Source: Oxalicibacterium faecigallinarum
GTDB lineage: Bacteria; Pseudomonadota; Gammaproteobacteria; Burkholderiales; Burkholderiaceae_D
NCBI RefSeq assembly: GCF_014635705.1
Contig: NZ_BMDI01000001.1
Span: 372,001-436,000, forward strand
DNA: 64,000 bases
Direction: 5' to 3'
Both the position numbers and the translations under genes were made by a program. This document shows positions 27,604 through 51,500 of the stretch, in pieces. Each line of letters begins with the position of its first letter. Position 1 is the first letter of the stretch. The notes under the pieces were generated by a model, which was given only the letters and a program-made list of their open reading frames with translations, made no database searches and had not been told where the DNA came from.

Positions 27604-27932
27604 CAGTGCGCCTGGTACTTCAGGATGGCGGGCAGGGTGTCTTTTGCCAGTGCAGACGTCTGCACAAGACGGATTGCCTCGTGGAATTTGAAAACGCGGG
27701 CGGTCAGGACATGGGTGCCCAGTTCGTACAGGCTGACGGTGTGCGCCAAACGCTCATCGCTGGTCAGATGGATGGCGTTGTTGTGCAGGCGATCGCCGCG
27801 CTTCCAATCTTCGATGATGCCGGCTTTGCCCAGCGTTTCGGCAATGGCGCGACTGTGGGTGGTCTTACCGCAACCCGCTGGCCCGTAGATCACGACCGGC
27901 TTGTCGGCGTAGTTTTCTGCTGGTGTTGGCAT
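27603..27932 (-). CDS. Small P-loop NTPase-like protein
   Basis: The 109-residue protein has a clear Walker A motif GPAGCGKT (17-24) after a short beta strand. The rest is helical and too short for a full AAA+ or kinase fold. It is the first gene of the leftward operon, downstream of the OL-like operators. It contains one copy of the 16-bp palindrome (27650-27665), read as VQTSA. The role is unknown. Confidence 0.75.
   Translation of the reverse strand: MPTPAENYADKPVVIYGPAGCGKTTHSRAIAETLGKAGIIEDWKRGDRLHNNAIHLTSDERLAHTVSLYELGTHVLTARVFKFHEAIRLVQTSALAKDTLPAILKYQAH
27650..27665. repeat. 16-bp palindrome, copy 1
   Basis: GTGCAGACGTCTGCAC is a perfect palindrome inside the small NTPase gene. Identical copies lie at 34903, 41469 and 50187. 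Chance recurrence of one 16-mer four times in 38 kb is negligible. Confidence 0.85.
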
Positions 27933-27978
27933 GTTCTGCTCCCATCGTTTAAGCCAGATCGGGCTGGCGATGGAGCGG

Positions 27979-28008
27979 ATTAAAGCATACTTTAATCCAT
28001 ATAATCAA
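27979..28008 (-). promoter_or_regulatory. Leftward early promoter (PL-like)
   Basis: On the minus strand TTGATT and TTTAAT are separated by 18 bases, the same boxes as the rightward promoter at 29184-29212. Both operators cover it. It would drive the chain from the small NTPase gene toward int. Confidence 0.65.
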
Positions 28009-28020
28009 GTATGCTTTAAT
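27979..28020. promoter_or_regulatory. OL-like operator pair
   Basis: Two 18-bp sites with centres 24 bases apart: ATTAAAGCATACTTTAAT (27979-27996) and, in opposite orientation, the related AATCAAGTATGCTTTAAT (28003-28020). They match three sites between the repressor and Cro-like genes. They overlap the leftward promoter, so the CI-like protein should repress the leftward operon from here. Confidence 0.8.
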
Positions 28021-28042
28021 TAAAATTGTGCGAACAGGCAAC

Positions 28043-28070
28043 AAAAAACCGCCACAGAGGGCGGTTTTTT
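28043..28070. terminator. Bidirectional terminator after the lipoprotein gene
   Basis: An 11-bp perfect stem (AAAAAACCGCC with GGCGGTTTTTT, six-base loop) lies 18 bases past the lipoprotein stop. It isolates that gene from the OL region. Confidence 0.9.
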
Positions 28071-28087
28071 CTTGAATATGATTGGTT

Positions 28088-28459
28088 TTATGGGGCGTTC
28101 TTGATCAGGTCGGCCCATTCCTGAATGCGTGATGAAAGTGTGCCGCGTTCGAATGTCGTCACTTTCGTGCTTGTGTCTGATAAGGCTCGCAATTCGATCA
28201 TGCCGTAGTAAGGCCCATTTCCAATGGTGATTTCAGCAATCTGATCACTTTCCCAAATCGTCATGAAGCTAGCGCCTTTGAAATCAATCGTTTGTTTGGT
28301 GGCGTTGTCGTCCCAATACTTGGCGAGGACTTTGTAATTACGGTCTTTGACAAAACTGGATGTGGGTTCTTCCTTGAGTTTTGCCTTGTTCATGGCGGGA
28401 ACTGTGCATCCGGTAAGTAGCGAGATTGCAACGATGGCTATGAGCGCGCGGCGTTTCAC
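28088..28459 (-). CDS. Prophage lipoprotein of unknown function
   Basis: The 123-residue protein has a typical lipoprotein signal (MKRRALIAIVAISLLTGC, lipobox LTGC, acylated Cys18). A small soluble domain of about 105 residues follows. It sits alone between the OL terminator and the regulatory gap near the repressor, with its own terminator, so it may be expressed in the lysogen. The location suggests lysogenic conversion or superinfection exclusion, but this is inference. No family recognised. Confidence 0.85.
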   Translation of the reverse strand: MKRRALIAIVAISLLTGCTVPAMNKAKLKEEPTSSFVKDRNYKVLAKYWDDNATKQTIDFKGASFMTIWESDQIAEITIGNGPYYGMIELRALSDTSTKVTTFERGTLSSRIQEWADLIKNAP

Positions 28460-28522
28460 GATGTTTTACATTCCTTGTTTGATAAGTGGTTCGGACTGTA
28501 TCAGGGCTACCTTGTACTCAAC

Positions 28523-28540
28523 ATCCCATATACATGGGAT
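28523..28540. promoter_or_regulatory. Inverted repeat in divergent gap
   Basis: ATCCCAT and ATGGGAT flank ATAC in the gap between the lipoprotein gene and the 61-residue gene. It is a possible operator and is unrelated to the CI-like sites. Confidence 0.4.
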
Positions 28541-28588
28541 CGCTCGCTTTCTTCCTCCTTAGTACCGTCGGTCAGCAGCCCGGTCGCG

Positions 28589-28608
28589 CCCTTTGTTTAA
28601 ACAAAGGG
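28589..28608. promoter_or_regulatory. 20-bp palindrome covering a ribosome-binding site
   Basis: CCCTTTGTTTAAACAAAGGG is a perfect palindrome ending in the ribosome-binding site of the next gene. In RNA it would hide the site. As DNA it could be an operator. Confidence 0.65.
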
Positions 28609-28615
28609 GAGTTGT

Positions 28616-28801
28616 ATGCATCAGCGACAAGAAGAGGAGTTGGTAGGTCTTTTTAGACGTATGCATCCAGAGGATCGCATGATTCTGCTGGAGTTCGCCG
28701 CCTTGCGAGCGAAGTCGAACACGCCGCGGAGGGTGCATCTAACTCTCGTTAGCAACCCTGCGCCAGCGCAGCGTGTTCTGCTTGACGGCGCTACGGGCTA
28801 A
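28616..28801 (+). CDS. Small helical protein resembling repressor C-terminal segment
   Basis: The 61-residue protein starts after a good ribosome-binding site (GGGGAG, five bases). Its segment ELVGLFRRMHPEDRMILLEF resembles the C-terminal helix region of the adjacent repressor (ELIALYQQASERGRSNILDL), with matching hydrophobic positions. It is convergent with the repressor gene and overlaps its last 63 bases. A free oligomerisation segment could bind and modulate the repressor, but this is a hypothesis. Confidence 0.55.
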   Translation: MHQRQEEELVGLFRRMHPEDRMILLEFAALRAKSNTPRRVHLTLVSNPAPAQRVLLDGATG

Positions 28802-29149
28802 GTCAAGGATGTTGGAGCGGCCACGTTCTGAGGCCTGCTGGTACAAGGCAATCAGTTCGATGATCTCATCGGTAGTCGCTGTCGCGTTGTACGGCTCAGT
28901 TCGTTGGCTAACTTGCGGTACAGGCTGACTGCCATCTGGTTTGCCTTCACCTGTGGCTAGCCAATACAAATCCACGCCAAGAAAGCGTCCTGCTTTCGCT
29001 GTGTTCTCGGCAGTAAGTGCCTTCGTCTTTCCAATGAAAACATGGCTTAAAGCCTGCACGCTGATACCTAGAGCCGCGGCTAGTTCTTGTCGTTCTTTAC
29101 CGCTGTGCTTGAGAGCTTGCTCAAGGCGGGTGCTGAATTGCGTATCCAT
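28739..29149 (-). CDS. CI-like phage repressor without protease domain
   Basis: The 136-residue protein starts MDTQFSTRLEQALKHSGKER and has an XRE helix-turn-helix (ELAAALGISVQALSHVFIGK, about 19-38). A linker and a C-terminal helical part (ELIALYQQASERGRSNILDL) follow. It lacks the S24 peptidase domain of lambda CI, so self-cleavage on RecA activation is not expected. Divergent from the Cro-like gene, with three operators between. An upstream in-frame extension runs through the operators and is not used. Confidence 0.85.
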   Translation of the reverse strand: MDTQFSTRLEQALKHSGKERQELAAALGISVQALSHVFIGKTKALTAENTAKAGRFLGVDLYWLATGEGKPDGSQPVPQVSQRTEPYNATATTDEIIELIALYQQASERGRSNILDLARSAVKQNTLRWRRVANES

Positions 29150-29150
29150 G

Positions 29151-29212
29151 ATTAAAGAATACTTACATTCAATGAAAGTATGGTTGATTATTGATTTAAA
29201 GCATGCTTTAAT
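29151..29212. promoter_or_regulatory. OR-like triple operator
   Basis: Three related 18-bp sites at 29151-29168, 29172-29189 and 29195-29212 have centres 21 and 23 bases apart. The third holds the perfect palindrome TTAAAGCATGCTTTAA. The first two match the consensus less well. The layout is that of lambda OR, between divergent repressor and Cro-like genes. Confidence 0.8.
29184..29212 (+). promoter_or_regulatory. Rightward early promoter (PR-like)
   Basis: TTGATT (29184-29189), a 17-base spacer and TTTAAT (29207-29212) form a good sigma-70 promoter. The expected transcript start (about 29218-29220) falls at the Cro-like ATG, so that message is probably leaderless. Confidence 0.65.
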
Positions 29213-29219
29213 CCGAGGC

Positions 29220-29459
29220 ATGAAAAAAACAGTCGCAACTTCTCTTCTCGGTGGCACGCCAACAGCAGCAGCCGAAGCAATCGGAATCAGGCCGCAGGCT
29301 TATTCGCAATGGCCGGATGTGCTGAATCGTCGATTGACTGATCGCGTCCAGGCGGCGATTGCTCGCCAGCATTTGTCGCCGAGTTTGCTCGGCATCGAGC
29401 AGCCGTCTGGCGAAGCTCCCGACGATGACCATTCTCAGACAGACGATGCGGCTCCGTAG
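29220..29459 (+). CDS. Cro-like regulator
   Basis: The 79-residue protein has the Cro/YdaS-type helix-turn-helix GTPTAAAEAIGIRPQAYSQW (about 11-30), with an acidic C-terminus. It is the first rightward gene, divergent from the CI-like repressor and next to the strongest operator. It should oppose the repressor in lytic growth. Start chosen at MKKTVATSLL, directly after the PR-like promoter. There is no room for a Shine-Dalgarno leader. Confidence 0.8.
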   Translation: MKKTVATSLLGGTPTAAAEAIGIRPQAYSQWPDVLNRRLTDRVQAAIARQHLSPSLLGIEQPSGEAPDDDHSQTDDAAP

Positions 29460-29624
29460 CTTTCGCGAGTGATTTGAACTTGCGCGTTTGTAGTGGGCGA
29501 GAGGATGTCAGCGCCAGCTCAAGCAGTTGAGTGCGCAGGTTGTCGAGAGTTGTTTTGTTTTTCATGCACGAATCATAAGAACGATGGCGGTGGTTTACAT
29601 CGTTAATCGAAGGGGAGTTTTAGC

Positions 29625-30119
29625 GTGACGCAAGAGTATTCGGACATGAATCAGCACGACGCCTTATACAAGGCGGCGCGTAATTATCCAGGTGGTGTTG
29701 AAGCACTGGCCAAGCGTATGGGAATCAGCGCAGCCGTCCTGTATAGCAAGCTGCGACCGGGGTGCGATACACATCATGTGTCGTTTGAACAGGTTTCCGA
29801 GATCACTGATCATCTGGTTGAGGCACGTGTGCCGAATGCTCTCCAAGCCTTGCAGGCGTTGACATGGCGCCACGGCATGGTGGCGATATCGCTGCCGCCA
29901 CTATCCGAGCAAGAGACAGATTGCCTGGTGCAGTCGATCTGCAAATCGGTGGTGGAATTTGGTCACCTGACGTCCGCTGTTTCCGAAGCAATGGCCGACG
30001 GCAAAATCTGCGGCAAGGAATGGGATGAGATCGACAGAGAGTTTTCGCACGCGATCGGTGCGTTGACTGAGCTGCGTGAGCGTATCCGTGCAAAGGTCAC
30101 TGTGAAGGCCGACAAGTAA
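29625..30119 (+). CDS. CII-type phage regulatory protein
   Basis: The 164-residue protein resembles the phage CII regulatory family (CP76 type): NYPGGVEALAKRMGISAAVL, then YSKLRPGCDTHHVSFEQVSE, with a predominantly helical C-terminus. The start is GTG with AGGGGAG upstream. An ATG seven codons later is an alternative. It is the second rightward gene, and its stop overlaps the replication gene start (TAATG). By position it should promote lysogeny or control replication. Confidence 0.8.
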   Translation: MTQEYSDMNQHDALYKAARNYPGGVEALAKRMGISAAVLYSKLRPGCDTHHVSFEQVSEITDHLVEARVPNALQALQALTWRHGMVAISLPPLSEQETDCLVQSICKSVVEFGHLTSAVSEAMADGKICGKEWDEIDREFSHAIGALTELRERIRAKVTVKADK

Positions 30120-32923
30120 TGGCAACACTGGATCAGATCCTTGACGCGATGATCGCTCAAGGCATGCCTCTCCCTGCAAACAACAAGATTGAGGCCGACG
30201 GTGCAGTGCATCGATTCGGCCCGAAGAAGAAAGCCTGGTACAAGCTACAAGAGCGCACGCTGAAGGATGGCGGCTCTGCGTACTACGGCGCGTTTGGTGT
30301 CTGGCGCGGTGATGACAACGGCGCGATTAGTGTCACGTTGGCTGAGGGTGAAGTGTCGGAGGAGGATCTGGCCGACATCCGCAAACGGCAGGAAGAACAG
30401 GCCATCGCGCTGGAAGCCAAGCGGCAGGATGACGCCAAGAAAGCTGCTGGCCGCGCTGCCAATCAATGGAAGGATGCAGCCGAGACCGGCCAATCCGACT
30501 ATCTAATCCGCAAGCAGGTCACGCCAGAAGCGGTGCGTTTTGCTGATGATGGTGTGTTGCTGGTGCCGATGAAGCGTTACGCGCTGAACGGTAGCAAGCT
30601 GGTCGGCGTGCAGAAGATCAAGGCTGACGGCAGCAAGACATTCAACAAGGGTATGGAGAAGGTGGGCGCGGCCTGTCTGCTCGGTAAGCTCAAGCCTGAT
30701 TCTGCCTTGTTGATGATCGGTGAGGGCTATGCGACATGCCGTAGCGTACGCATGGCAACCGATGACCAATATCCCGCGATGGTGGCGTTTGATGCTGGCA
30801 ATCTGTTGCCGGTGGCGACGGCCTTGCGGCGCGACTTTCCTGATGTGCCTTTCCTGTTCCTGGCTGACGATGACTGGATGCTGTGCAAGCGTCTGGCCAA
30901 GCGTTTGGTCAAGGACTTTAAAATCGCCGCGACCTTGCAAATCGATGGTGAGTTGTGGCCACTGTATCAGTCCGACTTTGAGGATGATGATGAGGTTGAT
31001 AAGCAGCTGATCGCAATCTTGGAGAAGGGCGCAAGTAGGGTGCTTACTGTCGCTACCGATGGTAGTGAGACCAAGCTACTGAATGATGCTGGCGAGCAGG
31101 TGCGTGTCGTGGCCAGTTGGTATGAGGATGCCAACGGTATCAACTACATCAAGGCCGAAGTGTCGTGCGGCCGCGTCAATAAAACCTACACGCTTGAGAA
31201 CGCAGGCATGGCCAAGGCCAGTGCTGTGGCCAAGGTGGTGGGCAATGCATACGTGTGGAAACCTGCCTTTGTGGATCGTGGCCAGCGCAAGCTGACCGAC
31301 TGGAATGATCTGCACTGTGAGCAAGGGCTTGATGCGGTGCGCGACCAGCTGGCGGGCATGCTGTTGCACATCGTGTCGTGCCTCGATCAGCCGGCTGATG
31401 ATGTGCCGGAACTTCCCCCATTCCCCATTGATGATGCCTGCGGCGATCTTCCAGAAAGCGATGCTGCAGCGCCAGCGGGTGGTTTGCACCTGGCAGTCGA
31501 TAACACCAAGCCGCCCCAGCCTGAATATGGGGAAGAAGCACCGGCGGCGGCGCCCGCGGAGGCTGGGGGCGGGGCGGGCGGCAAGAAGCCGCCCAAGAAG
31601 GTCTACCCGAAAGAGTTCTGGGAGAAGGTCGATTACCTGCTCGAAAACTATGTGCTGATCTACGGCACCGAGGACGCATGGGATAACGACAACAGGATGA
31701 TTTTGCGCGTCGCGCACATGCGTCTTGCGCACGGTAACGATGCGGTCAAATTCTGGCTCGGCAACGGGTCGCGCAAGATGGTCAACAAGGATCGCGTCGT
31801 GTTTGATCCGACGATGACGTGTGATCCGGAAACGTCCGTCAATCTGTATCACGGCTTTGACATGATGCCGAAGCCTGGTAAGCATCAGAACATTCTGCTT
31901 CTGCTCGATCACCTATGTGGTGGCAATGAGGATGTGTTCGAGTGGGTGCTTAACTGGCTGGCGTATCCGCTGCAGAACAAGGGCGCAAAGATGCGCACCT
32001 CGATCATCGTGCATGGCGATGAGGGTTCCGGTAAGAACCTGTTTTTTGAGAACGTCATTAAGCGGATCTACGGCGAGTATGGTGGTGTGATCGGCAATGC
32101 GCAGATCGAATCGCAGTTCAACGAGTGGGCGTCGAGAAAGCTGTACTTCGTTGCTGATGAGGTTGTGACGCGCAACGAGCTGCGCCAGTTGAAGGGCAAG
32201 CTCAAGCACATGATCACCGGCGAGACGATCATGATCAACCCAAAGAACATGACGGAGCGCTCCGAGGCAAATCACATGAACTTTGTGTTTTTGTCGAACG
32301 AACTGCAGCCGCTTGCGCTGGATAAGACTGATCGGCGTTACCTGGTCATCTGGACGCCGCCAAACAAGCCGCCTGAGTTCTACAAGGATGTAGCTGACGA
32401 GATCGCGGCTGGCGGTGCAGAGTCGTTTCTGGACTTCCTGTTGAAGCTCGATCTGGGTGACTTTAACGAGCACACCAAGCCACTCAACACAGAAGCGAAG
32501 GTCAAGCTGATCGGCCTTGGTCTGACACCGTCTGAGAAGTTCTATCGGGAATGGAGCCTTGGTTTCCTTCCCCTTCCTTACATGACCTGCTCGGCGCAGC
32601 AGCTTTATACGGGCTTCTTGCGCTGGTGCCACCTCAATGGCGAGAAATTCCCTCCCACACAAACACTGTTCGGTCGAATGATTGAACGGACAGGCTTTGG
32701 GCAACTGTCGCGGGCGGTGATCAAGTTTGACCTGGGCACGGTGTGCAAGCAAAGAACCGTGTACCTCGTCGGTGATATGCCGGAAGGGTCGAGTCGAAAA
32801 GATTGGGCTGAGCAAGCTTCCAGCTTGTTTGAAAAATGTTTGAAGCAGTACCGACATGTGCATGACCAGCCGATGGATTTGGCGACAGATGTGCATGGGC
32901 AGCAGGAGAGTGTTAACAGTTAA
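30119..32923 (+). CDS. Phage replication protein: TOPRIM primase with DUF5906-type helicase
   Basis: The 934-residue protein has a TOPRIM-type region (MIGEGYATCRSVRMATDD near 199, ADDDW near 257). After a Pro/Ala/Gly-rich linker (about 465-495) comes a C-terminal helicase domain, with Walker A GDEGSGKN near residue 633, VADEVV near 677 and a sensor segment FVFLSNE. Such fused primase-helicases start replication of phage and plasmid DNA. A structured, origin-like non-coding region follows directly. It is coupled to the CII-type gene by TAATG. Confidence 0.93.
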   Translation: MATLDQILDAMIAQGMPLPANNKIEADGAVHRFGPKKKAWYKLQERTLKDGGSAYYGAFGVWRGDDNGAISVTLAEGEVSEEDLADIRKRQEEQAIALEAKRQDDAKKAAGRAANQWKDAAETGQSDYLIRKQVTPEAVRFADDGVLLVPMKRYALNGSKLVGVQKIKADGSKTFNKGMEKVGAACLLGKLKPDSALLMIGEGYATCRSVRMATDDQYPAMVAFDAGNLLPVATALRRDFPDVPFLFLADDDWMLCKRLAKRLVKDFKIAATLQIDGELWPLYQSDFEDDDEVDKQLIAILEKGASRVLTVATDGSETKLLNDAGEQVRVVASWYEDANGINYIKAEVSCGRVNKTYTLENAGMAKASAVAKVVGNAYVWKPAFVDRGQRKLTDWNDLHCEQGLDAVRDQLAGMLLHIVSCLDQPADDVPELPPFPIDDACGDLPESDAAAPAGGLHLAVDNTKPPQPEYGEEAPAAAPAEAGGGAGGKKPPKKVYPKEFWEKVDYLLENYVLIYGTEDAWDNDNRMILRVAHMRLAHGNDAVKFWLGNGSRKMVNKDRVVFDPTMTCDPETSVNLYHGFDMMPKPGKHQNILLLLDHLCGGNEDVFEWVLNWLAYPLQNKGAKMRTSIIVHGDEGSGKNLFFENVIKRIYGEYGGVIGNAQIESQFNEWASRKLYFVADEVVTRNELRQLKGKLKHMITGETIMINPKNMTERSEANHMNFVFLSNELQPLALDKTDRRYLVIWTPPNKPPEFYKDVADEIAAGGAESFLDFLLKLDLGDFNEHTKPLNTEAKVKLIGLGLTPSEKFYREWSLGFLPLPYMTCSAQQLYTGFLRWCHLNGEKFPPTQTLFGRMIERTGFGQLSRAVIKFDLGTVCKQRTVYLVGDMPEGSSRKDWAEQASSLFEKCLKQYRHVHDQPMDLATDVHGQQESVNS

Positions 32924-32974
32924 CCCTTCAACAGCGCCGAACTATTAACACGTCAAGACCGTTTATCCATGCGG

Positions 32975-33137
32975 CTTTGTGAACAGTTCGAATAGTTGAA
33001 GAGTTCATTTTTGCCCCATGTGTGCGGGCGCGCGCGCGAGTGCATGCATGTACGTGTTTGTGAATTGATGTTTCCCCATGTGTGTTTTGTACCGACTTTG
33101 TTTTTTAACCCTTCAACTATTCGAACTATTCACAAAG
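32975..33137. repeat. Origin-like region: 27-bp inverted repeat
   Basis: Arms at 32975-33001 and 33111-33137 are complementary at 26 of 27 positions. Between them lie a direct repeat CCCCATGTGTG (33014-33024 and 33074-33084, exactly 60 bases apart) and an alternating purine-pyrimidine tract. The region lies just after the primase-helicase gene and holds no gene. A replication origin is the simplest reading. A large RNA hairpin is the alternative. Confidence 0.6.
33018..33056. other. Alternating purine-pyrimidine (Z-DNA-prone) tract
   Basis: Thirty-nine bases alternate purine and pyrimidine with few breaks, including GCGCGCGCGCG and TGCATGCATGTACGTG. Such tracts can adopt Z-form or ease strand opening. 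It lies in the loop of the 27-bp inverted repeat. Confidence 0.6.
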
Positions 33138-33192
33138 CTAATAGGCATAAGGCTTTTGATGATGAAGAGTTGTTTAAGAGTGTGGACAGTTT

Positions 33193-33522
33193 ATGAAAAA
33201 ACAAGATATGCGCGAAGCCATGCCAGAGACTGCGGCCTTCATCGACAAGATGCGTGCTGCGTTTGGAGTTGAGTCGATAAACGAGTCGATCAAGGGCGGC
33301 ATGCGTGGGCAAGGAGCATTTTGGGCGAAAGAGAACGGGCAAGAGGTCGGCTCGCGTCAGCCAGTGCCAAAAAGCATTGTGGGCTGGGACAAGTTTGGGC
33401 GGTCGTTCACGTTTGACGTGCCAGCTGGTGCAACACATGACGACGTGCAGGTGATGTTCGCCGCCGAGCAAAAGAAAGCAAACGATCTGGCGATGCAGCG
33501 CCGTGGCTTGCCGATCGACTGA
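33193..33522 (+). CDS. Hypothetical phage protein (109 residues)
   Basis: No family recognised. The sequence is mixed and soluble, with a segment IVGWDKFGRSFTFDVPAGAT that looks like a beta hairpin. It follows the origin-like gap and precedes a larger regulator-like gene in the same direction. The region is consistent with a middle gene expressed from the rightward operon. Confidence 0.7.
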   Translation: MKKQDMREAMPETAAFIDKMRAAFGVESINESIKGGMRGQGAFWAKENGQEVGSRQPVPKSIVGWDKFGRSFTFDVPAGATHDDVQVMFAAEQKKANDLAMQRRGLPID

Positions 33523-33557
33523 AGACAGACATTGAGTAACCTAGGGAAGAAAACAGC

Positions 33558-34355
33558 ATGACAAACCAAACAAACCAGCCAACAGCGATCTTCACCAGCG
33601 TCGGGCAAGCGCTGCATGTGGCGTACTTGATCATGGCGTCGGATGCGCGTCAGGACAGCCCGCTACGTAAGGCGCTGGTTCGCATGATGAGCGACATCGA
33701 TCTGTCCGCTCAACAGACCGAGTGGCTTAATCAGCTGCGAGGAGAAGCAACAGGCACGGTGAACTTTGCTGGTCTGTCAGCTGACGATGTACGAGCGCAA
33801 TGTGCCTTGATCGTCTCGGCTGTGGATTCAAAGTTGATGGCGCAAGAGAAGTGGGTAATCCATGCCAAGTACATGCAGATGGTATCAACCGGCAGCAAGA
33901 CGACTGAAAGGCAGCGCTCGGCACAGCAATACGTCAAATTCTGCCAGCACGCGCTTGATTCAGTTCGCATACCTATGCATGCACGTCGTCAGCAGGAAGA
34001 GCTGGAAGAGGCACAGCGACAATTGGATAAGCTGAAGTGCTGTCCTGCGGTTAGTTATTCCACTGGTCGCGTCGATGCGATAAAGGGCTTGTCGGAATGG
34101 TTGGCCGGATCGTTCCCGACGATCAACGTGATGGCGCTGGATATGATTGTTGCCAAAATCTACGCGAATCATGTGAAGACAGCGATTAGCTACCGAGATC
34201 TGGAAAAAACTTTTGGCAGTAGCAAGTCTACCTATGCTCGCATCGCGCCAGCCATTAAGGATCGACTCTATCGATTGGAGCTGATAGCGCAGGATCGACT
34301 GCGTCCTTACTTCGAGGAACAAGGTATTGTCGAGGTGTTTGAAAAAACCGCTTGA
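33558..34355 (+). CDS. Hypothetical phage protein, possible late regulator
   Basis: The 265-residue soluble protein is largely helical. Near the C-terminus TAISYRDLEKTFGSSKSTYA looks like a helix-turn-helix. It is the last gene before a terminator, a moron and the packaging genes, where phages often encode the late antiterminator or activator. Another terminator lies just upstream of the late genes (34965-34996). I infer a late-gene regulator only from place and the possible DNA-binding motif. Confidence 0.65.
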   Translation: MTNQTNQPTAIFTSVGQALHVAYLIMASDARQDSPLRKALVRMMSDIDLSAQQTEWLNQLRGEATGTVNFAGLSADDVRAQCALIVSAVDSKLMAQEKWVIHAKYMQMVSTGSKTTERQRSAQQYVKFCQHALDSVRIPMHARRQQEELEEAQRQLDKLKCCPAVSYSTGRVDAIKGLSEWLAGSFPTINVMALDMIVAKIYANHVKTAISYRDLEKTFGSSKSTYARIAPAIKDRLYRLELIAQDRLRPYFEEQGIVEVFEKTA

Positions 34356-34409
34356 CGATGTTGGGACAGTGCAAGTATATTTTCGCTATTCTCGAAGCAG
34401 TTACGACCT

Positions 34410-34442
34410 AAGCCCTTACCGTTGATCGGAAGGGCTTTTTTG
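34410..34442 (+). terminator. Terminator after the middle genes
   Basis: An 8-bp stem (AAGCCCTT with AAGGGCTT) with a 12-base loop is followed by TTTTT. It ends rightward transcription before the minus-strand membrane gene. Confidence 0.8.
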
Positions 34443-34814
34443 TTATTTTTCTTCGTTCTCAATCCGCTTGTTTGCTACCCAGTGGCAGATGTACAAGAGC
34501 AACCCCATTACAGGTGCGAATACTACGGATGCTAATGAGCACATATCAGTGACTGGCCGAATTGAGCGACTGATATCAAGATAGATGGAAAAATCGATTG
34601 TTTCTGCTTCAACTAACTTACCAAGATATTCATTGCATACCTGAGATACCAAGCTGGCTCCAATAGTGACGCCAAGCAGGATCGCGCCAATGAATGCCGA
34701 AGTTATCATCAAGTGATTTTGAATGGACTGAAAGAACCTCGGATATTTAATCGTGTATCGGATTGATACAGCGAACATTGATCCTACTGCGATAGCAAAT
34801 GACCACCAGTTCAT
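34443..34814 (-). CDS. Small membrane protein, likely moron
   Basis: The 123-residue protein has three or four membrane helices (about 4-22, 36-58, 92-112). It is AT-rich and on the opposite strand to the flanking phage genes, with terminators on both sides. This arrangement is typical of independently expressed cargo genes. No family recognised. Exclusion of other phages is possible but unproven. Confidence 0.75.
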   Translation of the reverse strand: MNWWSFAIAVGSMFAVSIRYTIKYPRFFQSIQNHLMITSAFIGAILLGVTIGASLVSQVCNEYLGKLVEAETIDFSIYLDISRSIRPVTDMCSLASVVFAPVMGLLLYICHWVANKRIENEEK

Positions 34815-34902
34815 GAGGGCTCCTTATAAGATTGCCGGATTGTAACTCAGGCAACATAAAATATTAGATGGCGAGGTCGGCGCTATATCCGACCACCAAC
34901 AT

Positions 34903-34918
34903 GTGCAGACGTCTGCAC
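34903..34918. repeat. 16-bp palindrome, copy 2 (non-coding)
   Basis: GTGCAGACGTCTGCAC, identical to copies at 27650, 41469 and 50187. This is the only copy outside a gene. It lies upstream of the packaging genes, between the moron and a terminator. Confidence 0.85.
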
Positions 34919-34964
34919 GCACCGTGTCCTGTCCGTCGTCCTCCTCATAATGGCGATGAGCGTT

Positions 34965-34996: not shown

Positions 34997-35020
34997 ATTT
35001 GTGTCCTGTGAGGTGAACTT

Positions 35021-41330: not shown

Positions 41331-41762
41331 ATGGAACAAGTCAAAGTCCGATTCCTTGGCACTGCGGTTACTGGTGTTGGTTCATTTTCTACAGGGGATG
41401 AACGCTCGTTCGATGCAGCGTTTGCAAAACACCTGGTTGAAGAAGCCAAGGCTGCCGAATATGTCGATGTGCAGACGTCTGCACAGATTGAAGAAACTGT
41501 CACTGCTGTGGTGATCGATCTCGAAGCTGAGAAGCAGCGTCTGGCAGATGAGGCGGCCAAGTCGCTCGAAGCTGAGAAAGCCCGTCTGGCAGATGAGGCA
41601 AACAAGGCAGTCGAAGCCGAGAAGCAACGTCTGGCAGATGAAGCAGCCAAGGCAATCGAAGCCGAGAAGCAACGTCTGGCAGATGAAGCAGCCAAGGCAA
41701 TCGAAGCCGAGAAGCAACGTCTGGCAGATGAAGCAGCCAAGGTCAAACAGAAATCCAAGTAA
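41331..41762 (+). CDS. Repeat-containing coiled-coil protein after the capsid gene
   Basis: The 143-residue protein has a globular N-terminal part (about 1-62). Five tandem 15-residue repeats (EAEKQRLADEAAK plus two) follow at about 64-138 and should form a long charged helix. ATG 41331 with GGAG upstream is the start. Place between capsid and connector genes suggests a head protein or assembly factor. It holds one 16-bp palindrome, read as VQTSA. No family recognised. Confidence 0.8.
   Translation: MEQVKVRFLGTAVTGVGSFSTGDERSFDAAFAKHLVEEAKAAEYVDVQTSAQIEETVTAVVIDLEAEKQRLADEAAKSLEAEKARLADEANKAVEAEKQRLADEAAKAIEAEKQRLADEAAKAIEAEKQRLADEAAKVKQKSK
41469..41484. repeat. 16-bp palindrome, copy 3
   Basis: GTGCAGACGTCTGCAC, here extended to 18 bp by flanking T and A. 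It lies in coding sequence and is read VQTSA, 36 bases before the tandem repeats. Confidence 0.85.
41520..41744 (+). repeat. Five tandem 45-bp coding repeats
   Basis: Five in-frame units of 45 bp encode (L/V/I)-EAEKQRLADEAAK-x. Units 3 to 5 are almost identical in DNA while units 1 and 2 have diverged. This suggests recent unit duplication, so copy number may vary between strains. Confidence 0.9.
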
Positions 41763-44067: not shown

Positions 44068-44076
44068 GGGAAAACA

Positions 44077-44430
44077 ATGGATCTCAATACCGACCAACTC
44101 ATTGCAGGCTTGAGGGCCGCTGCCAGCCTGCCTCCGATCAAAGTTCCCATGCCAGAGTGGGGTGGCGTGGTATACGTGCGCCCGCTGACGGTTGCCGAAG
44201 TCGAGGCGCAAACCGCTGTTGTCGACAAGGATGAAAAGACCAAGATTGCACGTAGCACCTGCCGTGTCCTGTGCGATGCGGATGGCAATCGTCTGCTGGA
44301 TGGCGACAATCCCGAGCACGTGGCCCACATTGCCCAACAGGAGTGGTCTGTTCTACAGCGCATCATGAATGCCAAGCGGCAGGCGAATGGCGAAGGTGAA
44401 GAAGGGCTTGCTGAAGCAAAAAACGTCTGA
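44077..44430 (+). CDS. Tail assembly chaperone (gpG-like)
   Basis: The 117-residue protein (LPPIKVPMPEWGGVVYVRPL, then TVAEVEAQTAVV) matches small phage tail assembly chaperones. Its last codons carry the slippery heptamer A-AAA-AAC in the right frame, five codons before the end counted with the stop. A -1 shift there joins it to the next frame to give a 217-residue fusion, like G-GT of lambda. The chaperone coats the tape measure protein during assembly. Confidence 0.88.
   Translation: MDLNTDQLIAGLRAAASLPPIKVPMPEWGGVVYVRPLTVAEVEAQTAVVDKDEKTKIARSTCRVLCDADGNRLLDGDNPEHVAHIAQQEWSVLQRIMNAKRQANGEGEEGLAEAKNV
44418..44424 (+). other. -1 ribosomal frameshift site
   Basis: The heptamer AAAAAAC is phased as A-AAA-AAC in the upstream gene, the strongest class of bacterial -1 slippery site. 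The stop follows two codons later, and the -1 frame is open to 44729. Confidence 0.85.
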
Positions 44431-44729
44431 CAGGTCGTCAGGAGTTTCTGATTGACCTGGCCTTCGAATTTGGCGTGCCGGCACACCAGCTGGCAGCCAT
44501 TTTGCCTGAGCGTGAATTTGTTCTGTACCAGGCATATGCGGTAAAGCGCATGCTGCCGCAGCGTCGGCAGGAAATGTATCTGGCCCAGATCTGCAGCGTG
44601 CTGGCGCAGGTGCATAGCAATACCGATGTCAGTGTGATGGATTTTCTGTTTGATCCTGTTGAAGAGATCGAGCTGGATGAGGATGAAGTGCTGGCGCACT
44701 TTGACTTCAAGCCGCGTAACAAAGGGTAG
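44424..44729 (+). CDS. Tail assembly chaperone T part, made by -1 frameshift
   Basis: The -1 frame encodes 101 residues (LTGRQEFLIDLAFEFGVPAH onward) with an acidic end (VEEIELDEDEVLAHFDF). It has no good independent start: the only early candidate is a GTG at 44475 without a ribosome-binding site. It is therefore best read as the C-terminal part of the G-T fusion, whose T domain contacts the tail tube protein in lambda. Confidence 0.85.
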   Translation, partial: RLTGRQEFLIDLAFEFGVPAHQLAAILPEREFVLYQAYAVKRMLPQRRQEMYLAQICSVLAQVHSNTDVSVMDFLFDPVEEIELDEDEVLAHFDFKPRNKG

Positions 44730-44731
44730 CT

Positions 44732-46999
44732 ATGTCTAACGGTATCGGCGCAATTGCGGTTTCGCTCGGCTTGGATGCTGCTGAATTTGTGAGCGGCCTG
44801 ACCAGATCGGAACGTGAAGCAGCACGTTCGATGAAAAAGATCGAACGAGAAGTCAGCTCGGCAGCTACAGCCATCCGGGCTGGCTTTATGGGCATCACTG
44901 CTGGTGTGACGATCAGCAAGTTCATCCGTGAAACGGTTGATGCCCAGAACGAAGCAGCTCAGCTACGTGCTGTGCTACGGTCAACTGGCGAGGCTGCGGG
45001 GTACGGTGAGGAAAAGCTGAATGCAATGGCGGTCGCGTTATCGCAAAACAGCATCTTCAGCGATGGTGATATCACGCAGGCGCAAACACGCCTGCTTTCC
45101 TATACTGGCGTGGTTGGCGAGCAGTTTCCAGCTGCGATGCAGGCGGCGATCGACATGGCGTCACGTATGGGCATGGATGTCACCTCTGCTGCCGAGATGG
45201 TTGGCAAGGCGTTGGATGTTCCTTCGCAGGGGCTTACGGCCTTGAGCAAACAAGGCTTCCGCTTCACGGAAGAAGAAAAGAAGCTGGTTGAAGCGTTGGA
45301 AAAAACTGGCCGTACGGCCGAGGCGCAGGCGATCGTTCTGAAGGCGCTGGAAACGTCTTATGGTGGCGCCGCAAGGGAAGCGCGCGACACGTTGGGTGGT
45401 GCACTGGCAGGGCTCAAAAACGAATTTGACAGCCTGATGACAGGTGAGGGTGGCAATGTCAATTCTGCGCGTGATGCGATTGAAAATCTGACCAAGACCT
45501 TGGGTTCGTCAGAAACCAAAGAAGCCTTTGCCACCGCAACACAGGCTATGGCCACACTGGTTGGATGGGCAGTCACAGGAACAAACGCATTTTTGGGATT
45601 CGGCAAGCATCTAGGCGAATCGCTGGCACGCGGTATTCATGGTTCTGCCGATCCAATCAATGATCAGATCAAGTCGCTGGAAGTGCGGGCGCGTAACGCC
45701 GCAACTTCGATCGAACTGGCCTCCAAGGCGACTGATTCTGGTCGTGATAAGCGACTCGCCAATCTGCGTGCCGAAGCCGCATTTGTTGATAAAGAACTGT
45801 CGCGCCTGCGGGGCATGCTGCCAGCAACTGCGGCGCCGGATTCGGGGATATTACCAACGGTCTCTGTGCAAGCGCCAAAGCGCGCATTGCCGGCAATTGA
45901 AGGTGAAAAGGCCAAGGTCACGGAAGCGCAACGCTATCTTGAGAGTCTGCAAAAACAGGCGATCACGGCACGCGACCTGACTACAGCAGAGACGGCATTG
46001 GCCGAGATCCAGTCTGGTCGTCTTGGCAAGGTCACCGCTGCACAGCAACGCCAGATTCTGGTCGTGGCTGAGCAGATCGACAATGAAAAGCGCTTGAAAG
46101 AAATCCGCGATGCTGACGACAACATCGTCAAGAAAACGCAGGACTACGCACAGTCCATTGAGGATAGTAACCTGCTGCTGCAGGCCGAGCTGAGTCTGAT
46201 TGGCAAATCCAATGAAGAGAAGCAGGTGGCAATGGACAACCTGCGTATCGAACTGGAGCTACGGCGCAAGATCCGCGATGTGCAGGCAATGGGTGGTTCT
46301 GATGCGGCAACGAAGAAAGCGATTGACGATCTGACTGCATCGGCTGGCATGGACAAGGCGAGTGTGCAGACACGAGCATTTATCGCAGAACAGGAAAAAC
46401 AGGCTGCTGAAGCCATGAAGGTTTGGGACAACTTCCGAGAAAATGTACAGCGGAACATGGGTGATCAGTTTTACAACATCATGCAAGGAAACTTTGACAG
46501 CGTTGGCGATGCGTTTAAGTCGATGGTGATGCGGATGGTGGCTGATGCGATGGCGGCGAACCTGACACAGGCTTTGATGGGTGGCGCCGGAAGTGCAGGC
46601 GGTGGCGTGTTCGGGAGCTTGCTGAAATTCGGTGTTGGCTTGTTAAGCGGAGGAAGTTCTGCTGCTGCCAATCCCGGTGCCGGTGCCAATGGTTTTGTGG
46701 ACTGGAGTGCCTCTAACCCGGCACTTTCAGGCTACATGCCTTCTTTTTCTGTGGGTATCGATAACGTCCCGCGAGATATGGTCGCCAAGATCCACAAAGG
46801 CGAGCGCATCCTGACGGCCAACGAAAACCGCAACTTCATAGGTGGTGGCAACGCATCACCATCGATTGTCTTCTCGCCGGTTTACCAGATCGACAGCCGC
46901 AGCGATCGTGCAGCCATCATGCAGGATATGCAGCGTCAATCACAGCAAACAAAAGCCGAGCTGGTGGAAGAGTTACAAAGAGCGCGAGTTATCACATGA
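44732..46999 (+). CDS. Tail tape measure protein
   Basis: The 755-residue, mostly helical protein has the lambda/TP901-like start (MSNGIGAIAVSLGLDAAEFV) and SREREAARSMKKIEREVSSA-like coiled coils, written from residues 21-45. A hydrophobic region lies near 640 and the C-terminal lambda tail-length motif near 725-755. It sets tail length and is ejected with DNA. At about 0.15 nm per residue the tail would be some 110 nm, an estimate from general knowledge. Confidence 0.94.
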   Translation: MSNGIGAIAVSLGLDAAEFVSGLTRSEREAARSMKKIEREVSSAATAIRAGFMGITAGVTISKFIRETVDAQNEAAQLRAVLRSTGEAAGYGEEKLNAMAVALSQNSIFSDGDITQAQTRLLSYTGVVGEQFPAAMQAAIDMASRMGMDVTSAAEMVGKALDVPSQGLTALSKQGFRFTEEEKKLVEALEKTGRTAEAQAIVLKALETSYGGAAREARDTLGGALAGLKNEFDSLMTGEGGNVNSARDAIENLTKTLGSSETKEAFATATQAMATLVGWAVTGTNAFLGFGKHLGESLARGIHGSADPINDQIKSLEVRARNAATSIELASKATDSGRDKRLANLRAEAAFVDKELSRLRGMLPATAAPDSGILPTVSVQAPKRALPAIEGEKAKVTEAQRYLESLQKQAITARDLTTAETALAEIQSGRLGKVTAAQQRQILVVAEQIDNEKRLKEIRDADDNIVKKTQDYAQSIEDSNLLLQAELSLIGKSNEEKQVAMDNLRIELELRRKIRDVQAMGGSDAATKKAIDDLTASAGMDKASVQTRAFIAEQEKQAAEAMKVWDNFRENVQRNMGDQFYNIMQGNFDSVGDAFKSMVMRMVADAMAANLTQALMGGAGSAGGGVFGSLLKFGVGLLSGGSSAAANPGAGANGFVDWSASNPALSGYMPSFSVGIDNVPRDMVAKIHKGERILTANENRNFIGGGNASPSIVFSPVYQIDSRSDRAAIMQDMQRQSQQTKAELVEELQRARVIT

Positions 47000-47607
47000 G
47001 CGTAAGAAACTGGCCACGATATGGCGTTGCGTCGTTCAACTGGACACTCATGCCGCAAGCGATCGCTTTCAAAGGTGCATTTGGTTCGCAAGCACTGGAA
47101 ACCGGTTCGCCGCGATGGGAAGTCAGTCTGACTGGCATTCACCAAAAGCACATCAAGTCGCTGGAAATTCAGCGCTTCATTGAATCTCTTGGTGGTTTTC
47201 GGCACCAGTTGGCTTTGTATCACTTGTTGCAGCCGGTGCCGCGTGGCACGCTTCGCGGCTCGCCTGAAGTGGCTGTACTGGCTTCGCGTGGCGCAACTGC
47301 ACTGACTCTAGATGCCGGTGCTGCGCAGGCAAACCGTACCTTGCTTGCAGGCGACTATATCGGTGTCGGAGCTAATCTGACGCAGCAGGTGTTGCGCCTG
47401 GACGCGGATGCTATTGCTGATGCAGCGGGCATCATCACAGTGCAGCTGGCGACGCCTTTGCGTAATGATTTCAATGTTGGATCTGCAGTAGTCTGGGATA
47501 AGCCAACCGCATTATTTAGACAGCGAGAGTTGTCTACTGGCATCAACTTCATTCCCAAATTCGGACAGCCTTGGTCATTAAATTTGCTTGAGGATTGGCG
47601 TCCATGA
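46996..47607 (+). CDS. Minor tail protein (203 residues)
   Basis: The protein (MSVRNWPRYGVASFNWTLMP, then GIHQKHIKSLEIQRFIESLG) is beta-rich and lies right after the tape measure gene, where distal tail proteins are found. Its ATG overlaps the tape measure stop (ATGA). I assign it to the tail tip by position and composition and name no family. Confidence 0.8.
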   Translation: MSVRNWPRYGVASFNWTLMPQAIAFKGAFGSQALETGSPRWEVSLTGIHQKHIKSLEIQRFIESLGGFRHQLALYHLLQPVPRGTLRGSPEVAVLASRGATALTLDAGAAQANRTLLAGDYIGVGANLTQQVLRLDADAIADAAGIITVQLATPLRNDFNVGSAVVWDKPTALFRQRELSTGINFIPKFGQPWSLNLLEDWRP

Positions 47608-48179
47608 CTGTGACAACCGAACAGCAGGCCGCGCTGGAGAAGCCACTCGTGGTGCCGGCGTATTTTGCGTTGTTTGACTTTGCATCGGCGCCGGTCCGTG
47701 TCACCAACTTTAATGCCAACTTTGACTGGGACGGTCATCAATGGTCCGGTTTGGGGGCGATCAGCAAAGTCAGTGAGGTGGAAGAAAGTGACGGCATGAC
47801 CACCAAGTCACTCAATTTCACGCTCAATGTCGCGGATACCTCGCTGCTTGCATTGGCGGCCGGCGCGGTTGAAGAGTATCGAGGCCGAGCTGCAACCATG
47901 TGGATGTGCCCGCTTGACGACCAGTATCGTCTGATCGATGAGCCGCAAGTTTGCTGGCGCGGCATCATGGACATGATGAGTCTGGGCATCGATGGTGATG
48001 AAGGGCAGATCGTACTGAAGTGCGAAACCAGTGCGTATGGTCTCAAGCGACAGCCATCGATACGACTCAATGCCGCCCAGCAAAAGAAGAAGTATCCAAC
48101 CGACACAGGTCTCGATTACCAGAACGACATGATTTCCAATCCGGTTGTCTGGTTGTCGCGACGATTCCAGCAGATCTAG
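47604..48179 (+). CDS. Minor tail protein (191 residues)
   Basis: The protein (LFDFASAPVRVTNFNANFDW, then DGHQWSGLGAISKVSEVEES) is a beta-rich tail-tip type protein, reminiscent of lambda gpL-like or DUF2163-like adaptors. The ATG overlaps the previous stop (ATGA). It is followed by a tetraloop terminator. The exact family is not certain. Confidence 0.8.
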   Translation: MTVTTEQQAALEKPLVVPAYFALFDFASAPVRVTNFNANFDWDGHQWSGLGAISKVSEVEESDGMTTKSLNFTLNVADTSLLALAAGAVEEYRGRAATMWMCPLDDQYRLIDEPQVCWRGIMDMMSLGIDGDEGQIVLKCETSAYGLKRQPSIRLNAAQQKKKYPTDTGLDYQNDMISNPVVWLSRRFQQI

Positions 48180-48183
48180 CCAG

Positions 48184-48204
48184 GCGCCTTCGGGCGCTTT
48201 TTTT
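48184..48204 (+). terminator. UUCG-loop hairpin terminator in the tail genes
   Basis: GCGCC, TTCG and GGCGC are followed by TTTTTTT. The next gene begins with the ATG at 48205, right at the end of the T-run. Confidence 0.85.
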
Positions 48205-48570
48205 ATGTCCCTTGCCGACTACATCAAGGCGCACTTGTGCACGCCATTCAAGTGGGGCGAGCACGACTGCGTGTTGTTTGCCGCACGGTGGGCATTGCTT
48301 GCAACTGGCACGGATCATCTGGCGGGCGTATCGCCTTGGCGTGATGCGCGAGCAGCAATGCGTATGGTGCGCCGCATGGGGGGCATGCAGGCATTGATGG
48401 ATGCCCGGCTCGCGAGGGTGCATGTAAACCTGGCACGCGATGGCGACATTGCCTTGTATCGGCGCTGTCTTTGCATCGTCAGTGGGGCGCATTTGGTAGG
48501 CCCGAATCATCACGGCCTGGAATTTATTAAAAGAACGGAAGCGGAATGCGCCTGGTCATTGCACTCCTGA
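48205..48570 (+). CDS. Tail-associated NlpC/P60-like or DUF6950-type protein
   Basis: The 121-residue protein starts MSLADYIKAHLCTPFKWGEH and then DCVLFAARWAL. The WGxHDC pattern is typical of small tail proteins related to NlpC/P60 cysteine peptidases (lambda gpK position). A catalytic Cys would be C22, with His partners downstream (PNHHGLEF). No ribosome-binding site precedes the ATG, which directly follows a terminator T-run. The start or its translation is therefore odd. Confidence 0.8.
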   Translation: MSLADYIKAHLCTPFKWGEHDCVLFAARWALLATGTDHLAGVSPWRDARAAMRMVRRMGGMQALMDARLARVHVNLARDGDIALYRRCLCIVSGAHLVGPNHHGLEFIKRTEAECAWSLHS

Positions 48571-51500
48571 TATTGCTGTTGCCGGTTGGCGCACAAGCAG
48601 AGCCGGTAACAGCGTTTCTCGGTACCGTTGCTTTTGCCGGCGTGACGTATGGACAGATCATCCTGTTTGTCGGGACGATGGTCTACGGTATGGCGCAGCA
48701 AAAAAAGGCTGAGCGCCGCCAGCGTGCGGCAGCTGCCGCGCAGCGCGATGCCTATAATGCAGGCCTGCAGGACCGCACACTCAACAGGATGGCGACGGAT
48801 TCCCCGTATACCTTCGTGTATGGCCGTGCACGCGTTGGTGGTGATCTGGCGGGCATTCTAACCAGCGGCAGCCGTGATGAATATCAGCACGTGATCATTG
48901 TGCACGCCGCACATGAGTGTGACGGGGTCGAAGAGTTCTACGTCAATGGTGAGGCCTTGGGCCCGCTGGATGCGAATGGCGATGTCACGACTGGGAAGTA
49001 CGTGTCTGTTGCGACAGGGACGCACACCCAGCAAACGACGGCTTCGTCAATCGTCTTGACCTACACACCTGTTACCGGAACGGTGACCGGTTTGATCGAA
49101 ACAACCTTCGATTTTGAGTCTGGTCAGCAGGGCTGGGCGACGATTGCAGTTAGCGTTGTTGGAAGCGTTGTGACGTTCAGCAACCCAGGCGGCAAGGTCG
49201 TTCAACTGAATTATCAGTATCGACAGGTGACATCCATGGTCCGAGTGCGTACGCACCTTGGCACGCCGGACGATCCTGTTGACGCGCATCTGCATGCCAC
49301 GTTGCCATCTAAATGGCCAGCAACATCGGTGTTACGTGGATTGACGTATAGCGTGGTCACGCTCAACCTCAATCAGCCGGAGTTTCAAAATGGGCTTCCG
49401 CAGCTGGAAATCCTGTTGCGCGGAAAAAAGCTGCTCAACTTCCGCACTGGTGAAACGGTCTGGAGTCAGAATCCCGCCGAGGTGATCTACGATTACTTGC
49501 TGAGCGACATTTGCGGCGTGGATGCGGCAGATCTGCCCATGGCCGATTACATCGCCGCAGCAAACGATTGCGACGATGCAATTACCATTGGCCCGCGTTA
49601 CACCTTCAATGGCACTGTCACGTCCGACATGAATCAGAGCGAAACGCTCGAACGCATGGCGCAGGCAATGGCAGGTGGCATTGTGGCGACCACATGGGGC
49701 ATTTACGCAGGCAAATACTCGGCGCCGGTAATGGCGCTGTTTCAGGATGACATCGTTGGCGCTTTTGCGCTCACACCGGGCATCTCAGATGCGGATCTGT
49801 ATAACGGGGTGCGTGGACAGTACACCGGTGTGGAGACCGGTTACGTCGCAACGGACTTTGCGCCGTACCAGAACGCAGCATTTGTTGAGGCCGATGGCCG
49901 AGAGTTGTGGACGGACATACCGATGCCGTTCACAGATGCATTGCAACGCGCACACAACTTGTGCCGGATCTTCACTGAAGATCAGCGCAATGCCTACATG
50001 TTCAAGGCGGAGTTTTCGCTGAAGACATGGCGGCTTCGCGTTGGGCAACGCATTACGATGACAAGCCCGCTGTTTGGCTGGCAGGACAAGGTTTTTCGCG
50101 TTACCGACAAACGCTTCTCGCCATCATCCATGGTCGAGCTGAGCTTGAAAGTCGATGATCCATCGATCTGGGATGAGGCAGATGCCGTGCAGACGTCTGC
50201 ACAGCCAAACACCAATCTGCCGAATCCTTTCGATATCTCGCCGCTTGCAAGCCTGTCTTGTCAGTCCGGAAGTGAACACCTGATCGCCAAGGATGGCACG
50301 ATCATTTCGCGCATCTTGGTCACATGGCCAGTTGCAACGACCCCATCGGTGGTGCGTAACGGTCAGATCGAGGTGGAATGGCAACTGGTCGGTGCGGATG
50401 TCTGGAACAAGGTGGCCGTCAGTGGTAGCGATACCGAGGTCTATGTGTCGCCAGCGGAGGACGGTAGTTTCTACAAGGTGCGCGGACGGGCGGTCAACAG
50501 CACGCTCAACGTCAAATCCGACTGGACCTATGCAGCTCTGCACCAGGTGGTCGGCAAAACCGCGCCGCCAGCGAATATGCAGAACCTGTCCATCACCGGC
50601 AGCGTGCTCAGCTGGGCGCCAAACCGTGAGCTGGATCTGAAGGGGTACATCTTCCGATCGCACTACGGCAACAATCTCGATTGGAACAGCGCCGCGCCAT
50701 TGCATGAAGGGGTGATTACAGAGATGCCGTTTGAGCTGGTGACCCGGCCTAATGGCGTCGTGACCATCATGGGCAAGTGTCTGGATACGTCCGGCAACGA
50801 GTCCATGGCCACGGCCAACATTGTCACCAATCTGGGTGACCCAGTCATCGCCAACGTCGTGGAAGTGTTCGATTTCCACGGCGACGGCTTTCCGGGCGAG
50901 TTGCAAGGTGCCGTGCTGGAAGCTGGCGATCTGGTTGCGCTGGAAACCGACTCGTTCTACGGGTCGGACAACCAGTCTGCCTACGGCCCGGATAACGAGC
51001 CAGCTTACGCGCTGTCGTCCTATGCGCAGTTGCGCTACACCACGGAAGAAGTATCGGTGGCATCGGTGCTTGCCGGTTCGATCATGACGCTGGAGATCGA
51101 GTATCAAGGCATCGACTTGTTCATCGAGTATCGGTTGGCCGGTCCCGGATCGGCTTACGGTGCGGATTCGGATTCTGCCTATGGCCCTGATGAAGAACCG
51201 TTCTACGGCGGACCGGGTGTCTGGCAACCATGGCCGGGGCAGATCCTTGCCGCAAACGACGTGTATCAGTGGCGAGTAACGCTCGGCGCTGGCTCAACGC
51301 AGGCCCGGATTACCGAGCTGACGGTGACGATCGACGCGCCCGACCTGGTCGAGTATCTGGAAGACGTGTTGATTGATGCCGCCGGTACCGTTGTTCCCTA
51401 TACGAAAAACTTTCGGTCGATCAAGACCGTGACGCCCACGCTGCAAGCCAACGCCAGCGGCGCTGTCACGATCGAGGCCGACAAATCCACCAACCTTGCG

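Follow-up and report, generated by a model that had tools for sequence, protein, structure and literature searches.

Dispersed 16-bp palindromes as candidate loading sites of an orphan ParB in a prophage of Oxalicibacterium faecigallinarum and in related phages

We analyzed a stretch of 64,000 nucleotides from Oxalicibacterium faecigallinarum (assembly GCF_014635705.1, contig NZ_BMDI01000001.1, positions 372,001 to 436,000; hereafter the window, whose own numbering is used throughout), which carries a prophage of ~37.6 kb at 21576-59241. A 16-bp palindrome recurs along this prophage, and an earlier note, made from the window alone, had proposed that its copies are parS-type sites with the ParB-like protein of the prophage as the candidate reader. 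Co-occurrence with the ParB family, motif-blind clustering and permuted controls all supported this proposal at the sequence level, and the palindromes are very probably parS-like loading sites of the phage ParB. This reading rests on the sites themselves, which are confined to the prophage and associated with the ParB family, on their absence from ten relatives that lack such a ParB, and on selection acting on the DNA within a gene. More tentatively, the phages that share this arrangement may form a temperate family that coats its own genomes: an orphan ParB acting as a CTP clamp, to which several members add an H-NS DNA-binding domain, would load at about five parS-like sites at recurring landmarks, so that phage DNA that enters the cell or is induced would be covered over its whole length and escape silencing by the host. 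Beyond what the earlier note contained, we found a fifth site, an H-NS domain in ParB, no ParA of the AAA_31 type, and repressor-type operators before the genes that lead to parB.

The palindrome, GTGCAGACGTCTGCAC, occurs in four exact copies at 27650, 34903, 41469 and 50187, as the earlier note had located them. Site 2 (27650..27665) lies inside a gene for a small P-loop ATPase-like protein, site 3 (34903..34918) is intergenic and 340 bp ahead of the start of an HNH gene, site 4 (41469..41484) is ~180 bp past the major capsid gene, within the next gene, and site 5 (50187..50202) lies within a gene for a 1010-aa tail-tip-like protein. The additional site, site 1 (24183..24198, GTGCAGATGTCTGCAC), has 1 mismatch and is found inside parB, where it forms codons for G-A-D-I-C-T. 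A degenerate and doubtful site with 3 mismatches (54759..54774) may be due to chance. At up to 3 mismatches the window showed 6 matches, versus 0.42 expected from shuffles. A weaker match previously suggested at 57595 agrees with the 12-bp core except for 1 mismatch, yet it differs from the 16-mer by more than 3 mismatches and was not counted. A count over all 10 contigs of the host genome (3,326,008 bases) at 0-1 mismatch gave exactly the five sites, all inside the prophage, in agreement with the claim that the host flanks carry none; four places with 2 mismatches lie elsewhere in the genome.

The motif and the canonical parS sequence, TGTTTCACGTGAAACA, are equal in length (16 bp) and in their central ACGT and differ in their arms. 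No exact or 1-mismatch copy of canonical parS was found in the prophage, and the host copies lie elsewhere. A role of the 16-mer as a chromosomal parS was rejected because the host parS is found near the host parB, and a role as the operator of the phage repressor was rejected because the repressor region has a different palindrome. When 193 sites, allowing up to 2 mismatches, were combined into a profile, it was sharp across the 16 bp and favored A/T one base beyond each end; the 31 contigs from IMG/VR that contributed to it were picked by the exact motif and bias it accordingly, whereas the ParB-selected regions described below are free of this particular bias. The median gap between sites was 6.8 kb (146 gaps). 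The even spacing that had been claimed is weak in the window prophage alone (p 0.034) and reached p 9e-8 (Fisher's method) over 29 genomes, in a test in which sites less than 1 kb apart were merged beforehand, which favors evenness, and in which the genomes are related. Paired sites 27 or 60 bp apart were seen in G226 (locus L321, 14608 and 14635) and in G200 (L293, 17832 and 17892), respectively.

When regions were selected by the protein, the site was found to travel with it. A search for ParB in 195 genomes from the family to which the host belongs, its own genome included, yielded 17 places in 14 other genomes at E <1e-60, which together with the phages VarioGold and Aval make up 19 ParB-selected regions. 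At least one 16-mer with 0-1 mismatch was present in 16 of these 19 regions, in 1-6 copies each, so that the motif is retained by most relatives with this ParB; the ratio is 15/18 when a near-identical second G151 copy is left out. Counting the window and the second G151 copy, 20 regions (692,416 bp) contained 53 such sites, whereas 20 dinucleotide shuffles gave 0.05 on average. Sites within 2 mismatches were absent around 15 weaker ParB hits (L145-L159; presumably chromosomal, ~3.5 kb each) and from 372,808 bp from ten phages that were hand-picked from terminase and primase hits and in which no such ParB was found. ParB used as a single-protein query against viral contigs was discarded as a means of finding relatives, of which it returned none; 18 aligned family members are only 26-42% identical to the window ParB. 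In a scan of genome contigs for ParB, the best 80 of 590 hits were mostly more distant ParBs, among which only L196 seems close.

Selection by the motif gave a matching result. A scan of IMG/VR with the exact 16-mer returned at least 120 stretches, and 100 of the 109 distinct contigs were tested. The ParB family was encoded by 62 of these 100 contigs (30/50 and 32/50 in two sets) and by 55 of the 62 that were at least 28 kb long (27/29 and 28/33), a limit that was fixed after the table had been viewed. Two palindromes of equal composition with permuted arms returned 2 and 11 stretches, and none of their 13 contigs, including the 8 of at least 28 kb, encoded the family. As judged from these sequences, the candidate sites of this orphan ParB occur with a like protein in dozens of other viruses.

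The motif was also recovered without being named. Near-palindromic 16-mers were clustered within each region, with at least 3 members required for a cluster, and the 16-mer or a variant emerged in 12 of the 20 ParB-selected regions; the variant of phage Aval has C/G at positions 6/11. The 16-mer or its variant was likewise recovered in 23 of 31 IMG/VR contigs, while the ten ParB-less phages gave no cluster of any kind. At 80 other parB loci the same procedure recovered canonical parS or a near form 17 times, and regions with neither motif nor parS gave nothing or GC-rich clusters. No convincing palindrome array was seen at the distant ParB loci of Acidobacteria, L197-L201, L205, L206 and L208 or in the phages POI1126 and yong2. 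In the Microcystis phage yong2 (L360), a gene for a 612-aa ParB-like protein (32243-34081) lies between integrase and repressor, as parB does in the window.

Codon usage at the sites points to selection on the DNA. Many ParBs of the family hold a site in their own gene, where it encodes S-A-D-V-C-T. The serine of this in-parB site was AGT in 19 of 20 cases (10/10 in the ParB-selected subset), compared with 6.7% of Ser codons in the same genes, and the alanine was GCA in 28 of 30, compared with 20.5% of Ala codons; this count omitted the duplicate G151b, G229, in which the pattern matched elsewhere, and rows without the pattern or a ParB. Because C258 and T259 of the protein are invariant, protein and DNA constraints overlap at this site. 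The protein sequence gives no reason for choosing such rare synonymous codons, which indicates from sequence that the DNA is selected. A shared reading frame had also been claimed, and the three coding copies at 27650, 41469 and 50187 do all translate as VQTSA, while the copy at 34903 is in no open reading frame (ORF) of at least 60 aa, as had been stated. Other genomes use further frames: among 193 sites in 47 genomes, assigned to the longest ORF of at least 100 aa, we counted ADVCT 70 times, VQTSA 58 times and CRRLH 48 times, with 10 sites in shorter ORFs and 7 in none. Although this tally is rough, in that the true gene can be a shorter ORF than the one chosen, as it is at two window sites, a frame-linked VQTSA protein motif was rejected on account of the other frames.

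The sites favor certain positions. A site in parB or within 2 kb upstream of it was present in 16/19 ParB-selected and 25/28 motif-selected genomes (5.4 and 9.5 expected). A site just upstream of the HNH gene was seen in 4/9 and 6/14 (0.5 and 1.3 expected), and one just behind the capsid gene in 4/7 and 8/13 (0.6 and 1.8 expected). These counts cover sites with up to 2 mismatches, with the window included and G151b left out; since the intervals were set after the layout had been viewed, the expectations are only a guide.

The candidate reader is a ParB of 632 aa (23060..24958, minus strand) with a ParB_N domain at residues 12-106 and an HTH_ParB domain at 108-192, both of which were present in 16/16 family members scanned. 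They are followed by a four-cysteine region (235-263), in which C235, C238, C258 and C263 are invariant across the 18 aligned members, as is T259, and by an H-NS C-terminal DNA-binding domain at 570-604 (44.2 bits, cut-off 25.6). As to an H-NS oligomerization domain, the Pfam scan gave no hit of a second H-NS model in this ParB. The ENxxR motif was found in all of 48 ParBs, and a GxRR-type nucleotide box was found by pattern in 45/48, two with one Arg altered (GACR, GEQR). A WPF or WPW tail occurs in 26 of the 48, which are diverse (45 clusters at 80% identity, 39 at 60%). The family profile matched ParB structures bound by cytidine triphosphate (CTP) or CDP, with 7bnk, 7bnr, 7o0n and 6t1f among 14 hits, and an AlphaFold2 model of ParB (mean pLDDT 75) likewise matched CTP- or CDP-bound structures. 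The closest long ParB model was TIGR03734 (PRTRC ParB), which matched residues 21-270 below its curated cut-off (134.5 bits vs 278.6), and the protein also scored below the cut-off of the Noc model (150 bits vs 315).

Control of parB was examined in the repressor region. A CI-like repressor is encoded at 28739..29149 (minus strand; family searches were run with a longer ORF that extends to 29257). Two operator-like sites at 27980..28019, TTAAAGCATACTTTAA and a copy with 2 mismatches, lie ahead of the leftward genes leading to parB. Two further copies (29152..29211) occupy the gap between the repressor (start at 29149) and a small Cro-like gene (start at 29220), which run in opposite directions from it, in a layout similar to that of a lambda-like switch. 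The leftward genes down to parB would form a single operon under repressor control; a scan for promoters and terminators gave results at chance level. Given the operator-like sites before the genes that lead to it, parB is probably a lytic-early gene. The first gene behind the left operator encodes the P-loop ATPase-like protein (27603..27932, minus strand, 109 aa) that contains site 2. VarioGold has an annotated 98-aa AAA+-type ATPase close to parB, and the window protein is a possible non-canonical partner of ParB.

We propose that ParB binds these sites and then behaves as a CTP clamp, a step for which family knowledge and the modeled fold are the basis. By analogy with known ParBs, a dimer would read one half-site with each helix-turn-helix, and the CTP-bound dimer would close round the DNA, depart from the site and slide. 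From five sites 3-9 kb apart, sliding clamps could cover most of the phage genome and no host DNA. ParB complexes usually extend over 10-20 kb, according to the available part of PMC10770331, and compared with the median gap this extent suggests that the spacing could cover the whole phage. Because the genes leading to parB lie behind operator-like sites of the repressor, the coat would be made upon infection or induction and be off in quiet lysogeny.

Several observations weigh against the loading-site reading or the mechanism attached to it. G074, which has much of the prophage on its contig, encodes the ParB and has no site, and two G037 regions are also without sites, although in these the contig breaks off at parB and lacks the main part of the prophage. 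(Three GC-rich near-palindromes were noted in G074.) Blind clustering did not recover the motif in 8 of the 20 ParB-selected regions or in 8 of the 31 IMG/VR contigs, most of which lack the three clear copies that a cluster requires. Among the 62 motif contigs with a length of at least 28 kb, 7 have the 16-mer and no ParB (G203, G237, G245, G252, G262, G283 and G288); the contig of G237 probably stops shortly ahead of parB. No ParB_N domain was found in G203. The Fisher p of 7e-7 for motif against permuted contigs of at least 28 kb is too small, given the post-hoc limit and the relatedness of contigs, of which G239 and G241 are seemingly one phage. The nucleotide box reads GERR in 39 of 48 ParBs and GARR in the window ParB, where an alanine thus replaces the glutamate reported to be needed for CTP hydrolysis in Myxococcus xanthus ParB. 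In the accessible portions of the two papers, the E93A variant of that protein is said to have a hydrolysis defect with CTP (PMC9178275), and R94 and R95 apparently lie within the GxRR motif (PMC10770331); the alanine would then sit at the hydrolysis glutamate and would predict a clamp that is released slowly. Finally, only a minority of the family has an H-NS domain, which was detected in 1/16 members in one scan and in 0/10 in another, with partly overlapping protein sets. G203 (L343, L344) is an unrelated phage with a different terminase kind, which carries one exact and three near copies of the motif.

As for what a coat of loaded ParB would do, the purpose that we consider most likely, while holding it loosely, is that it keeps phage DNA from silencing by host nucleoid proteins and leaves it transcribable. 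The closest functional precedent, by analogy, is VirB of Shigella. This orphan ParB uses CTP to load at parS-like sites and counters H-NS, as stated in the part of PMC10770331 available. An H-NS DNA-binding domain at the C-terminus of ParB fits this purpose. VirB and the phage ParB are alike in being orphan ParB-type proteins of mobile elements with a CTP-clamp fold and a possible relation to H-NS. They differ in that virS sites lie upstream of certain promoters, while here about five sites tile the phage and some of the ParBs themselves carry the H-NS domain.

Another purpose, to which we give a rather low probability, is that the coat marks the phage DNA as self or protects it from defense, in that clamps would recruit or repel SMC complexes or nucleases, or would mark DNA for replication or packaging. 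That sites recur close to the HNH/terminase end and past the capsid gene is in keeping with this idea, as is the placement of the VarioGold parB amid annotated DNA-metabolism genes. It is countered by the Pfam scans, which found no known partner domain.

It is also rather unlikely that ParB serves as a segregation device, which would partition or position circular phage DNA or its copies together with a ParA of the host or some other partner. Partition systems are typically recognized by a ParB and its parS-type sites, and both profile and fold match chromosomal ParB. However, no AAA_31 ParA-type ATPase was found on any of 30 ParB contigs (other ParA-type models were not searched), no ParA family was found by Pfam among 20 window proteins, and the ParA-binding motif (L/F/I)G(K/R)G(L/F/I) was absent from the first 120 residues of all 48 ParB ORFs. 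The integrase and att sites of the prophage show that its lysogeny is chromosomal, and the sites are dispersed over the genome rather than gathered at one centromere.

That the ParB instead compacts and silences the prophage during lysogeny, with its H-NS-like domain and from sites used in the fashion of stoperators, appears unlikely. The H-NS domains of the ParBs of the window, G196, G218, G219 and G231 (the last identified from a C-terminal piece) would suit such a silencer, as would the sites inside late genes. On the other hand, parB is expected to be off in lysogeny, since the genes leading to it are behind operator-like sequences, and most members scanned lack the domain. Besides the window, at least four IMG/VR relatives have an H-NS-fused ParB (loci L290, L312, L313 and L327); other relatives have different C-terminal extensions.

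A different phage protein, such as the repressor, a late activator or a methylase, is very unlikely to be the reader of the sites. No ParB was found in 38 of the 100 motif contigs, G203 among them; most of the 38 are short fragments. The repressor-type operator has a different sequence, and the ten ParB-less phages, whose terminases or primases are of the same kinds, lack the motif. An origin by chance or as a recurrent coding motif, for which only the VQTSA translation of three window copies speaks, can be set aside with near certainty, as it is refuted by the shuffles, the control palindromes, the other frames used elsewhere and the codon evidence.

The loading-site reading places the phage system among several known ones. 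With ParABS it shares ParB_N and HTH_ParB domains, the nucleotide box, ENxxR, and a multi-copy 16-bp palindrome with central ACGT; it differs in the arms of the palindrome, in a long additional C-terminal region, in that no AAA_31 ParA or ParA-binding motif was found, and in that sites run across a whole integrating phage, whereas parS is clustered near the origin. Noc is likewise a ParB paralogue without ParA that uses dispersed palindromic sites; the protein described here is phage-encoded and has a different site. PRTRC ParB resembles the window ParB over residues 21-270, and H-NS-family xenogeneic silencers resemble it in the C-terminal DNA-binding domain. The stoperators of mycobacteriophage L5 are asymmetric and bound by the repressor. 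They resemble the present sites in being spread in many copies over a temperate phage, while the present sites are palindromic and differ from the repressor-type operator.

Orphan ParBs are frequent on prophages and largely unexplored, and divergent ParBs carried by plasmids or prophages nearly always occur as orphans that lack the consensus ParA-binding motif (PNAS 2025, PMC12704722, accessible part). The orphan prophage ParB-like proteins described there also lack a ParA motif and are often fused to other domains; no DNA sites are named for them in the accessible part of that paper. The VarioGold paper (PMC9658991) mentions ParB twice, as annotation only, and its accessible text has no word starting with pars or palindrom. 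Neither the motif nor such an array of sites was found in the literature searched, which was available in part and outside of which lie most subscription papers and all bioRxiv preprints. Our results supply a candidate site set for one family of orphan prophage ParBs, and with a conserved site set the function of orphan ParBs becomes directly testable. If the coat reading is true, ParB clamps can mark and organize a whole small genome, beyond a centromere. A fusion of ParB with an H-NS domain would unite two DNA-organizing systems that are opponents in the case of VirB. The motif is also a cheap marker with which to find such phages.

The prophage is bounded by 51-bp repeats at a tRNA-Arg gene, with attL (21576..21626) in the tRNA gene and an identical attR at 59191..59241. 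A tyrosine integrase is encoded at 21661..22839 (minus strand), and together with the att sites it points to chromosomal lysogeny. Other genes of the prophage encode a CII-like regulator, primase, terminase, portal, an S78 protease and capsid. Megablast of positions 22500-47000 against phages gave no match. A second repeat of 41 bp (85%) stands behind both att sites (21640-21680 and 59253-59293), and its left copy is a terminator-like hairpin. Near attR, genes for a UmuC-type polymerase (57027-58295) and a SRAP protein (55780-56622) were found. Just behind the primase gene, two 32-nt arms form an inverted repeat (94%) and are separated by 101 nt (32974-33138). In the gene after the capsid gene, adjoining site 4, five tandem units of 45 bp (41521-41745) encode EAEKQRLADEAAK-like repeats.

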